Assembly (NCBI GenBank): GCA_003021175.1
Contig: PXQV01000001.1
Coordinates: forward strand, 244,472-281,901
Length of the DNA: 37,430 bases
Direction of reading: 5' to 3'
Source of the DNA: Halobacteriales archaeon QH_7_66_36
GTDB taxonomy: Archaea; Halobacteriota; Halobacteria; Halobacteriales; Haloarculaceae
Shown: in pieces, positions 18,605 to 21,212 of the stretch
Numbering within the stretch: position 1 is the stretch's first letter
How the letters are laid out: the number at the start of each line of letters is the position of its first letter
Notes under the pieces: generated by a model
Seen by the model: only the letters and a program-made list of their open reading frames with translations
Told to the model about the DNA's origin: nothing
The model's database searches: none
Made by a program: the position numbers and the translations under genes

Positions 18605-19228
18605 ATGACGGATTCTGACGACAGAGGTACGGAGGACCCGGTGACCAGCGCACTGGTCGACGGATCGACGTACGACCAGATCCGGGTACAACGAATATCG
18701 ACGTTCAAGTGGCCGGTTCGTCGGAAGCTGTTCCGACTCGGTGGGCTGTCGTCGGCCATGTCGGCACTCATCCTCTCGCTTGCGCTCCTCCCCTCGGGCG
18801 TGGTCGAGTTTCTCCCGACCGACCCGTACACCGCGCTGACTCGGACGGTGTTGGTCGCCGCCATCGGCGTCGCCGTGATGGCTATCTCGGGGGTGCTGCT
18901 CGCGATTGCCGAGGCGGCCCGCAAGCGACTCGAACCGATGGACGAGGCGCGGGCCGAGGCGATGCTCGCGTTCGAGGAGATGTGGTCACTCATCGGCTTC
19001 GTCATCGGCGGGGGCACGGCCGCAATCGCGGCGGGCTTCGTCATCGCGGCTCACGCCGGCGTCGATGTCCTCGACGGCGTGTATCGACTCATCGGCCCGA
19101 TGGCGTACACCTCCGTTCCGGCGCCGATCCCACCGTCGGCCGTCGCGGTCACCGCTCTCGCGGTCGGCACGACCTTTCTCGTCGTCAGCGCCGTGTTCCC
19201 CGACGACGGTCAGTGGACGGGTTCGTAG
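18605..19228 (+). CDS. Membrane protein of unknown function
   Basis: This encodes a 207-residue protein with a 45-residue soluble N-terminus (MTDSDDRGTEDPVTSALVDGSTYDQIR...) and four hydrophobic helices at about residues 48-68, 79-103, 127-152 and 178-199. A charged helix (AARKRLEPMDEARAEAMLAF) links the second and third. It matches no transporter or enzyme signature that I know. Its last 19 bases overlap the end of the convergent MBL gene. No clear TATA box was found upstream. Confidence 0.7.
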   Translation: MTDSDDRGTEDPVTSALVDGSTYDQIRVQRISTFKWPVRRKLFRLGGLSSAMSALILSLALLPSGVVEFLPTDPYTALTRTVLVAAIGVAVMAISGVLLAIAEAARKRLEPMDEARAEAMLAFEEMWSLIGFVIGGGTAAIAAGFVIAAHAGVDVLDGVYRLIGPMAYTSVPAPIPPSAVAVTALAVGTTFLVVSAVFPDDGQWTGS

Positions 19229-20238
19229 CCGTCGCGGAGTCGGTCGATCACGGTCGGGAACAGCGCGTCTAAGTCGGCGTCCGGCTGGACCAGCTCGTAC
19301 TCGCGGCCCGTGCGTTCGACGACGCCCGCGTCGTGGAGATGGTCGAGATGTGCGAACGCCTCGCCGGGACCGTGCAGGATGTGGATGTTCCGGAGGTCGC
19401 CGAACAGCGCCTCAGACACCGCCCACGGAGTCGCAGGTCCGTCGGCGAGCGCGTCGACAACGCGGGCCGTTCGCTCGCGGTGGTGGTCGATGATGTCGGC
19501 CGCCCGTCCCGGCGGGTCGACGATGGCACCCCGGTGGCCGGGCCACGCGCGGGTGTAGCCGCGGTCGACGATGTCCGCCAGCGTGGCGAGATACTTCGCC
19601 AGCGGCGCGTCGACGCGCACGTCGGCCCCGCCGACGTTCGGTGTGTAGTAGGGGAGGAGTGCGTCGCCGGCGAACAGCTCCTCGCCGTCGGCCCCGTCGA
19701 ACGCGAAGCCGGTCAGTCCGGCGGTGTGGCCCGGTAGCCCGACTGCCTCCAGCGTCACGGAGCCGAGGTCGAACCGCTTCCCGGCCTCGAACGTCGTCAC
19801 CGTCGGATCGGGGTTGTCGTCGGTGTTGGCGCTCAGGAACGACAGCAGTTCCTCGCGCTCGGCCGGGGGCATCCCCCACTCGGTGATCTGTTCGCGGAAT
19901 GCGTCGCCGGGGCCTTGGGGGTCGACCCGGCCGGCGACGATGCCCGCGTCGGCCTCGTGGACGTACACCGGACAGTCGGCTTCGGCCTGTATCTTCCCCG
20001 CGAGGCCGGCGTGGTCGGGGTGCCAGTGGGTAAGAAGGATCTGGTCCACGTCGGCGAATTCGGCGTCCAACTCCGCGAGGCCGGCCCGCAGCTCGTCCAG
20101 CGTCCGCGAGCGACCGAGGCCCGTATCCACCAGCGTGAGGGTCGCGTCGGGTTCGGTGCCGAGCACGTAGCAGTTGTTCAGCCCCTCGAAGGCCGCGTTG
20201 CCGAGCTGGATCTGGTGGAGTGCGAAGGGGAGATTCAT
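19210..20238 (-). CDS. MBL-fold metallo-hydrolase with C-terminal winged-helix-like domain
   Basis: This is a soluble 342-residue metallo-beta-lactamase-fold hydrolase. The metal motif HxHxDH is HWHPDH (71-76). Further ligand positions are in GLPGHTAGL (about 183) and FAGDALLP, and a late His is in WPGHRGAIVDP. The C-terminal 90 residues (HHRERTARVVDALADGPATPWAVSEALFG...AHLDHLHDAGVVER) look like a winged helix, as in LACTB2/glyoxalase-II-like proteins. Such enzymes cleave thioesters or nucleic acids; the substrate is unknown. Its ATG overlaps the stop of the upstream ubiquitin-like gene (ATGA), so the two are co-translated. Confidence 0.88.
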   Translation of the reverse strand: MNLPFALHQIQLGNAAFEGLNNCYVLGTEPDATLTLVDTGLGRSRTLDELRAGLAELDAEFADVDQILLTHWHPDHAGLAGKIQAEADCPVYVHEADAGIVAGRVDPQGPGDAFREQITEWGMPPAEREELLSFLSANTDDNPDPTVTTFEAGKRFDLGSVTLEAVGLPGHTAGLTGFAFDGADGEELFAGDALLPYYTPNVGGADVRVDAPLAKYLATLADIVDRGYTRAWPGHRGAIVDPPGRAADIIDHHRERTARVVDALADGPATPWAVSEALFGDLRNIHILHGPGEAFAHLDHLHDAGVVERTGREYELVQPDADLDALFPTVIDRLRDGYEPVH

Positions 20239-20513
20239 CGGCCACCTGCGACGGAGGGCGCGAGTGTCAGCGTGTCGCCGTCGGAGAGTTCCGTCCCGTC
20301 CGCATCGCGAACCGGGTCGTCGGCGACGAGGACGTTGATATTCGACCGGAGTCGCCCCTCGCCGTCGAACAGCAGCGGTCCGAGGCCGTCGTGGTCGGCG
20401 TCTAATTGGTCGAGCAGCGCCCGGACCGTCGTTCCCACAGGTATCTCGCGTTCGATCCGCTTCTCGCCGACCGCCTCTCGGACGGTGGCGTGAAACTCGC
20501 AGGTGACGCGCAT
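20235..20513 (-). CDS. Ubiquitin-like SAMP/MoaD-family protein ending Gly-Gly-Arg
   Basis: This encodes a 92-residue beta-grasp protein (MRVTCEFHATVREAVGEKRIEREIPVGTTVRALLDQL...NINVLVADDPVRDADGTELSDGDTLTLAP). That is the MoaD/SAMP pattern, which in haloarchaea serves as sulfur carrier for molybdopterin and as protein modifier. The C-terminus is SVAGGR: the diglycine (90-91) is followed by one Arg instead of being terminal. Activation by an E1-like enzyme needs a free terminal Gly, so the Arg would have to be removed, or this member acts differently. I chose ATG 20513; an upstream in-frame extension is Arg-rich and lacks strand pattern. It is translationally coupled to the MBL hydrolase. Confidence 0.85.
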   Translation of the reverse strand: MRVTCEFHATVREAVGEKRIEREIPVGTTVRALLDQLDADHDGLGPLLFDGEGRLRSNINVLVADDPVRDADGTELSDGDTLTLAPSVAGGR

Positions 20514-20606: not shown

Positions 20607-21212
20607 TCAGCCGACGGTCGTCGGGATGCCCTTCGTCTGCCGGTAGTCGCCGTCGAGTAGCGCGGTTATCTTCTCGACGAGCGCCGCGCGGTCCGCGTCG
20701 GTCCACGCCGCTGGCTCCGTCACCGGCACGACGAGGAACCCCCGGCCGCGGATGCCCGTCGCGTGGTGACTGGCGGCGTCGACATCGACCTTCCGGAGCA
20801 GCGAGGTGTGCTGTTCGAGCGCGTATCGGAGCGCTCGGTCACCGACCGGAAAGAGGATGTGGGCGTTGATGGCCCGGAGTTCGGCGTCGAGGAAGCGCTC
20901 CTGCTCGTCGTACGCCGCCTCCGGCGGTTCGCCGTCCGTGATCCCCGGATGCGCGTACGAGAGGAACGTGTTCGACAACTGCGGTTCGTCGCTGTACGCC
21001 TCGGCGGCGAAGCCAACTTCGGCCAGCACGGACTGGAGTCTGCGACCGGTTTTCGTCTCGGTAAACGGCACACCAGTCTTGACCCCACCGTGGCGGGCGG
21101 GACTGTCGCCGATGAAGTGAAAGTCCGCGTTGGCGTCGCCGTAGCCGTACGCCGCACCCCCATCGATACGCATGCCGAACGGGTTGTGCACCCTCTCGGT
21201 GACGTTCTCCAC
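20607..21212 (-). CDS. Uracil-DNA glycosylase family protein
   Basis: This encodes a 201-residue protein with the UDG fold pattern. Motif-1-like FIGDSPARHGGVKTGVPF (about 32-49) is followed by LQSVLAEVGF, SNTFLSYAHPG, and motif-2-like LFPVGDRALRYALE with SHHATGIRGRGFLVVPV. It lacks the cysteines of iron-sulfur family-4 enzymes. Predicted role: removal of uracil or related damage from DNA, but some such haloarchaeal proteins are uncharacterised, so the substrate is open. It lies near a photolyase-related gene, which may only reflect a loose DNA-repair neighbourhood. Confidence 0.8.
   Translation of the reverse strand: MENVTERVHNPFGMRIDGGAAYGYGDANADFHFIGDSPARHGGVKTGVPFTETKTGRRLQSVLAEVGFAAEAYSDEPQLSNTFLSYAHPGITDGEPPEAAYDEQERFLDAELRAINAHILFPVGDRALRYALEQHTSLLRKVDVDAASHHATGIRGRGFLVVPVTEPAAWTDADRAALVEKITALLDGDYRQTKGIPTTVG

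Follow-up and report, generated by a model that had tools for sequence, protein, structure and literature searches.

The window analysed here, a stretch of 37,430 nucleotides from contig PXQV01000001.1 of Halobacteriales archaeon QH_7_66_36, carries on its minus strand two overlapping genes, one for a protein like the small archaeal modifier proteins (SAMPs) and one for a metallo-β-lactamase (MBL)-fold hydrolase. The SAMP-like gene (20235..20513, minus strand) encodes a precursor of 92 amino acids with the ThiS/MoaD fold, which ends in ...TLAPSVAGGR and matches Pfam ThiS (PF02597) at 42.9 bits (7.1e-11, cut-off 22.5), placing it in that superfamily. The translation thereby bears out the preliminary description, made from the bare sequence, of a SAMP/MoaD-like product ending in SVAGGR. 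The codons of the diglycine (GG), G90-G91, lie at 20241..20246 (minus strand) and are followed by a single arginine codon (Arg92, CGA, 20238..20240, minus strand), so that the diglycine is masked and the protein as encoded lacks the exposed C-terminal GG of a functional-class SAMP. The last base of this codon is the first base of the hydrolase start: as read from the DNA, the ATG of the MBL gene (20238-20236) and the TGA of the SAMP gene (20237-20235) share the 4-nt overlap ATGA (20235..20238, minus strand), as had been described. The hydrolase itself (19210..20238, minus strand) is intact, has 342 amino acids and matches Pfam Lactamase_B at 1.1e-22. A sequencing error as the source of the arginine was ruled out, since the near relative QS_9_67_17, a metagenome-assembled genome (MAG; locus L063), shares the GGR end at 89% identity of the SAMP and 94% of the MBL protein.

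We searched 146 genomes of the family with a profile of 14 relatives (alignment A1). Thirty-three genes scored at least 111 bits and the next match among those listed reached 95 bits; by genus they occur in 6/6 genomes of the window's genus, 8/8 of g7, 4/4 of g88, 6/8 of g10, 8/20 of g4 and 1/2 of g89 (G, L, g and f numbers denote genomes, loci, genera and families). In a 60-row tree, which did not contain HVO_2177 itself and in which one SAMP3-like row (L246) was truncated to 52 residues, the 33 clade rows came together (support 100/96) beside 21 SAMP3-like rows (87/85), and six SAMP1-like rows stood on their own side of the tree (100/100). The inner forks are weak because only 93 columns were usable. 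This grouping supports reading the clade as distinct and sister to the SAMP3-like proteins, not inside them, in line with the distinct modifier proposed earlier. The closest relative of known structure is 2m19 (1.3e-10; 85.9 bits with the clade profile), which we take to be SAMP3 (HVO_2177) of Haloferax volcanii. It has in common with the window protein the β-grasp fold, a length of about 90 amino acids and a C-terminal V-A-G-G, but 2m19 ends at GG, whereas most members of the window's clade have residues after it and form the separate sister group. The NCBIfam SAMP1 equivalog model NF041918, tried on P0001, L116, L005, L180 and L014, scored the window protein at 62.5 bits (cut-off 60); in the tree the window clade falls outside the SAMP1 grouping, and a SAMP1-like gene exists separately in genome G000 (L002, 117.1 bits). 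Since a SAMP3-like protein (102.9 bits) and four clade members (62.5-86.2 bits) pass the model as well, automatic naming as SAMP1 through it may be misleading.

The diglycine is invariant in all 33 members, providing two of the 8 invariant positions among 89 well-filled columns, and it is written with 11 different codon pairs without change of the amino acids. The residues that follow it form tails of 0 to 70 amino acids with no common sequence beyond close relatives. The survey of C-termini thus upheld one part of the preliminary description and not the other: a masked diglycine is the rule in the clade, while the arginine is not conserved, the GGR end being restricted to the window genome and G333 (taken as QS_9_67_17). 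A plain GG end, which as the usual form among homologues would have spoken against masking, was found in only two members (G330 and G324), where TAG comes directly before the start of an MBL gene that shares the frame. In 27 of the 33 genomes the SAMP gene lies directly upstream of the MBL gene or is fused to it (three fused, two with plain GG, 22 with tails of 1-70 residues), a pairing too regular to be chance, so that the co-occurrence expected of a coupled pair holds. The MBL starts in the relatives' linked pairs being predicted ones, ATGA or GTGA stands at the SAMP stop in 21 of the 24 unfused linked pairs, in frame with the MBL gene, and G359 has TTGATG. The remaining six members, all of g7, have no MBL gene within a 12-kb stretch, and each carries exactly two residues after GG.

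In three genomes (G247, G331 and G332) the two genes form one open reading frame with GG at the junction. The fused gene of Halosegnis rubeus (G331, L116) encodes 437 amino acids; there, in MAG QH_7_65_31 (G332, L084) and at L034 the fusion was read in the DNA, and the codon after GG differs among them (AAA, AAG and TCC). These three loci encode ubiquitin-like (Ubl) polyproteins of the ubiquitin-fusion type, whereas the window holds two separate genes. The fusion has a single origin in the SAMP tree (100/99). Genome G330, of the same genus as the fused ones, reads GG-TAG-ATG, its two genes sharing a frame, and the fused form would arise from loss of a stop such as this one.

To compare selection on the parts, we took the ratio of non-synonymous to synonymous differences per site (pN/pS). 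It was 0.54-0.87 for the tails of five pairs, three of them from the same three genomes, with only 3-11 non-synonymous differences per tail and a loose tail alignment for G314/G316, vs 0.11-0.24 for the SAMP bodies of the same pairs; the range over three further unfused bodies was 0.09-0.33. Together with the invariance of GG this comparison suggests that the diglycine is held by selection and the tail much less so. That a masked diglycine would need a peptidase, as proposed earlier, is made probable by the invariant GG, the freely varying tails and the three in-frame fusions.

A candidate for that peptidase is encoded in the same genome. Two JAMM genes and a single E1 gene of the ThiF type exceeded their family cut-offs in the window genome, on contigs other than that of the SAMP-MBL pair. 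One JAMM protein scored 164.2 bits against the NCBIfam desampylase model (cut-off 130), and its counterpart in the fused genome G247 149.7 bits. The desampylase-family gene lies 0.4 kb from the E1 gene, and in 8/8 genomes searched a JAMM gene lies within 1.6 kb of E1 in convergent orientation (L227/L269 and matching loci). The E, HSHP, S and D that we take to make up the JAMM motif are present in all 12 aligned rows, the second JAMM protein of the window genome lying outside this alignment. The E1 stretch scored 431.6 against the UbaA model (cut-off 450), over the matched part only. In the published work available to us in part, HvJAMM1 cuts a SAMP1-MoaE fusion precisely behind the Gly and so frees SAMP1, a release that requires jamm1 in vivo (PMC4443979), and CsJAMM cuts the SAMP precursors of Caldiarchaeum subterraneum (PMC6043591).

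In the MBL partner, residues H71, H73, D75, H76, H171, D192 and H235, which by MBL numbering are metal ligands, are invariant in a 12-sequence alignment, so that both the HxHxDH motif and further ligands are present. A homologue was found in 228/293 genomes of the order (E<=1e-40), and a SAMP gene stood beside it, as judged by tblastn, in 9/108 scanned MBL loci, all nine of them of the window clade. The linked proteins were first typed by identity to the window protein, which was abandoned as the linked MBL of G250 is only 52% identical, and a 58-row tree used in its place bore out the division. There the linked-type MBLs form a group of 33 rows (99/97). The six g7 genomes without linkage have MBLs of a different, weakly supported group (87/74), apart from the linked MBLs of g7; from this separation it appears that the linked MBL was lost in them.

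By sequence, the closest solved MBL protein is 2zo4 (TTHA1429 of Thermus thermophilus; 2.7e-29), a stand-alone bacterial protein, whereas the window-type MBL is overlapped or fused with SAMP. The only Pfam match in the C-terminal region, which the preliminary description calls winged-helix-like, was B_lactamase-like_C at 15.6 bits, below the cut-off of 27. A structure predicted for the H. rubeus fusion from alignment A4, in which the SAMP half rests on three rows, had a mean predicted local distance difference test (pLDDT) score of 84.6. Residues 41-51 and 89-95 are its lowest stretches, and the latter, which is the GG junction, is one of the two under pLDDT 50. Another alignment (A2), in which the fusions were combined with rows for the single SAMP and MBL proteins, was discarded because the SAMP rows came out misplaced. 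In a structure comparison with VIA-align, which barely probed residues 1-94 of the fusion, the MBL half matched TTHA1429 best (Z 36.1, root-mean-square deviation (rmsd) 2.0 over 296 residues), followed by a Bacillus paraoxonase (Z 32.8); LACTB2 (4ad9) reached Z 23.9 with an rmsd of 3.9 over 260 residues. The C-terminal region aligns with TTHA1429 and less well with LACTB2. The lower matches comprised PqsE, GloB and B3 lactamases, and no single function follows from the list. Neighbouring genes were also tried as a clue; among 54 MBL loci of unequal lengths, genes that we would call PurL-like (22 loci) and uracil-DNA glycosylase (UDG)-like genes (17 loci) recurred most often, and nothing lay near all. 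We would guess at an ester or thioester hydrolase.

Taken together, the window gene probably encodes a pro-SAMP of the clade sister to SAMP3, in which a working diglycine is followed by a short dispensable tail, here one arginine. A desampylase-family JAMM protease, encoded beside a UbaA-type E1, would cut after GG, after which the E1 could activate the glycine so exposed, either for conjugation through an isopeptide bond or for carrying sulfur. Translational coupling would yield the MBL protein alongside; in sister species it would be the second half of one polyprotein. That the window's tail is a single residue would follow from the linkage between the SAMP stop and the MBL start. On this reading the hydrolase would most likely be a partner that is produced together with the SAMP or linked to it in cis, perhaps with a housekeeping role in the hydrolysis of esters or thioesters, and would not act on the SAMP.

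Several observations weigh against this reading. The processing, any conjugate and any thiocarboxylate are all deduced from sequence. Two of the 33 members end in plain GG and need no cut, and a single arginine could be removed by a carboxypeptidase. Moreover, earlier work cited in PMC8832034 is described there, in the part of the text available, as finding the GG of SAMP1 dispensable for the cleavage of linear fusions by HvJAMM1, so that conservation of GG need not mirror the cut. The pN/pS of the window SAMP body against G333, 0.33, is the highest among the unfused pairs. The fused SAMP domains have 0.36-0.53 vs 0.12-0.31 for their MBL halves, so they appear constrained but less than the MBL half, and they sit on a long branch (1.04); for both reasons their function may be changing. 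Furthermore, eight genomes keep a linked-type MBL without an intact SAMP gene in front of it. Remnants of the gene are clear in G325 and G320 and doubtful in G322, where the place lies beside a run of N, and no remnant was found in front of the MBL gene in G365, G241, G043, G367 and G360. In G320 (L208) the SAMP gene has an in-frame internal deletion with both ends left, in G325 (L203) only the C-terminal end is left, and in these two genomes and G322 (L210) the MBL gene is intact. In the 58-row tree the eight rows nest at several places among the linked ones, so that the SAMP gene has been lost more than once. Being absent or broken in these genomes, the SAMP is dispensable, and as each gene has apparently been lost without the other, the pair is linked without being obligate.

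Such losses, together with the raised pN/pS and the long branch of the fused domains, would also fit a SAMP domain that is never activated and instead assists the folding of the MBL protein or acts as its partner domain, its GG being kept for structure or by descent. We consider this unlikely, as GG stands in 33/33 members under 11 codon pairs and is kept in the six genomes with no MBL within the 12-kb stretch as well as in the two members with a plain end. The preliminary description had instead suggested that the hydrolase acts on the modifier, and it might hydrolyse a SAMP thiocarboxylate, acyl-adenylate or thioester; the gene overlap and in-frame fusion would agree with this, as would the alignment of the MBL fold with paraoxonase, GloB and PqsE, the last of which is thioesterase-like. 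The proposal is not supported: the MBL gene is found in over three-quarters of the order's genomes while a SAMP gene adjoins it at few loci and in this clade only, each gene is lost without the other, and the partners fused to SAMP2 and to SAMP3-like proteins are unrelated ones (see below), so that the partners have no chemistry in common. We therefore regard it as decidedly improbable.

The tail itself might stay in place or be removed by some general carboxypeptidase, as a mere by-product of tying the SAMP stop to the MBL start. The overlap at the stop in 21/24 unfused pairs and the loosely constrained tail codons can be read in this way. Since tails of 10-70 residues and whole fused domains would require an endoprotease, and the six members without an adjacent MBL gene still have exactly two extra residues, this explanation is quite unlikely. 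It is finally conceivable that the GG codons are kept not for the protein but to bind the ribosome for the MBL start, which they adjoin in the short-tailed pairs. Codon choice led us to reject this, as GGAGG would require GGA for the first Gly, a codon used there in only 1/33 members; GG is moreover kept 30-210 nt from the start and where no MBL gene follows, and the chance that it holds is very slight. The pro-SAMP matured by a desampylase accordingly remains the reading that we prefer.

Other SAMPs were looked at as well. Among 20 family genomes SAMP2 ends in plain GG in 17 and is tailed in three (RWD, RWG and RY; L276, L277 and L278), and these are precisely the ones that carry a SAMP-MBL fusion. 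The idea that SAMP2 masking is limited to these three genomes of the Halosegnis group was dropped when a strict pattern for the SAMP2 C-terminus, with any base but T after it, matched 36/293 genomes of the order; with TRR after it the count was 61/293, and this pattern misses many SAMP2 genes, including that of the window genome. Reading of 33 of the 36 matches (G176, G118 and G102 being left out) gave 17 tails of 2-11 residues, 13 fusions to a peroxiredoxin-like domain, two fusions to a GNAT acetyltransferase and one match (G096) that is not SAMP2. Pfam named SAMP2 with AhpC-TSA in two fusions and SAMP2 with an acetyltransferase in both GNAT fusions, the remaining peroxiredoxin assignments being made by eye from common sequence. 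The peroxiredoxin-like (AhpC/TSA) fusions belong to genus g29 of family f17 (L296-L309 without L300, and also L328-L340 and L342), are in frame and have GG at residue 65 before a variable linker; the GNAT fusions belong to genus g72 (L343 in G260 and L344 in G199). In all 17 genomes tested SAMP2 was single-copy (E<=0.01), 16 of them carrying fusions (14 peroxiredoxin-like, two GNAT) and G082 a two-residue tail, and in 14/15 g29 genomes tested the fused form was the only SAMP2 found. The 18 SAMP3-like loci (L013-L032 without L015 and L016) comprise five plain GG ends, nine tailed proteins and four with a further domain ending in AGG (L019, L027, L028 and L032). Pfam named ThiS alone in the two of these fused proteins that were scanned. 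A haloarchaeal family like the TATA-binding protein (TBP) with C-terminal GG, arCOG06308, has been described (Makarova and Koonin, PMC2948915, in the part available), and we take the second domain to be a candidate member of it.

Precursors of Ubl proteins and Ubl-enzyme fusions have been described before, as has a Ubl with a GloB neighbour. The SAMP precursors of C. subterraneum and CsUb-pre likewise carry residues after GG and are cut by JAMM-family enzymes, but they come from a distant archaeon, and the portion of the paper available describes no MBL partner or fusion (PMC6043591). Natural MoaD-MoaE and engineered SAMP1-MoaE fusions join a Ubl with an internal GG to an enzyme and are released by JAMM (PMC4443979, PMC8832034, both in part); in these fusions the partner uses the sulfur of the Ubl, a link that is not indicated for the window MBL. 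A figure legend of Makarova and Koonin 2010 (PMC2948915) lists a Ubl gene adjoining a 'GloB, glyoxalase' gene, much like the SAMP-MBL pair, with no lineage in the accompanying text, and sections 6 and 7 of that paper mention neither a SAMP-MBL fusion nor a masked GG. The bacterial operon type 6a (E2-E1-JAB fusion with an MBL; '6A-MBL' anti-phage in NCBIfam) also places an MBL beside a Ubl conjugation system, according to the available part of PMC1779556. The window MBL does not belong to it, as neither E1, E2 nor JAB was found among the six window neighbours scanned and the protein had no 6A-MBL match. QbsE/QbsD is a bacterial precedent; a literature search on it gave nothing among the matches listed. 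In a limited literature collection, judged by its listings, we recognised no paper describing SAMP-MBL, SAMP2-peroxiredoxin or SAMP2-acetyltransferase fusions.

The genes around the pair were also scanned. On the same strand upstream lie a UDG-superfamily gene (20607-21212, minus strand, by domain scan) and a copper-binding, halocyanin-like gene; on the other side lie a gene without a match, a TatA-like, an HD-domain and a major facilitator superfamily (MFS) gene. Since UDG-like genes are also found near the MBL gene in 17/54 other haloarchaeal loci, the SAMP gene may have been inserted between the UDG-like and MBL genes.

The haloarchaeal desampylase is known for the removal of modifiers. Should many haloarchaea normally produce their SAMPs with a tail or a fused domain, it may also make modifiers usable, like the ubiquitin-processing proteases of eukaryotes, and the modifier-enzyme fusions can be likened to the eukaryotic ubiquitin-ribosomal protein fusions. 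We tentatively suggest, as a possibility short of an even chance, that haloarchaea repeatedly make Ubl modifiers as proproteins or polyproteins (SAMP with MBL, SAMP2 with a peroxiredoxin-like domain or an acetyltransferase, SAMP3-like with a second domain), with the desampylase obligatory for their maturation and the fused enzyme perhaps inactive until cut. Were maturation obligatory, loss of JAMM should abolish tRNA thiolation and sampylation where the only SAMP2 is fused. The recurrent partner enzymes, MBL, peroxiredoxin-like and acetyltransferase, may hint at what these modifiers regulate.

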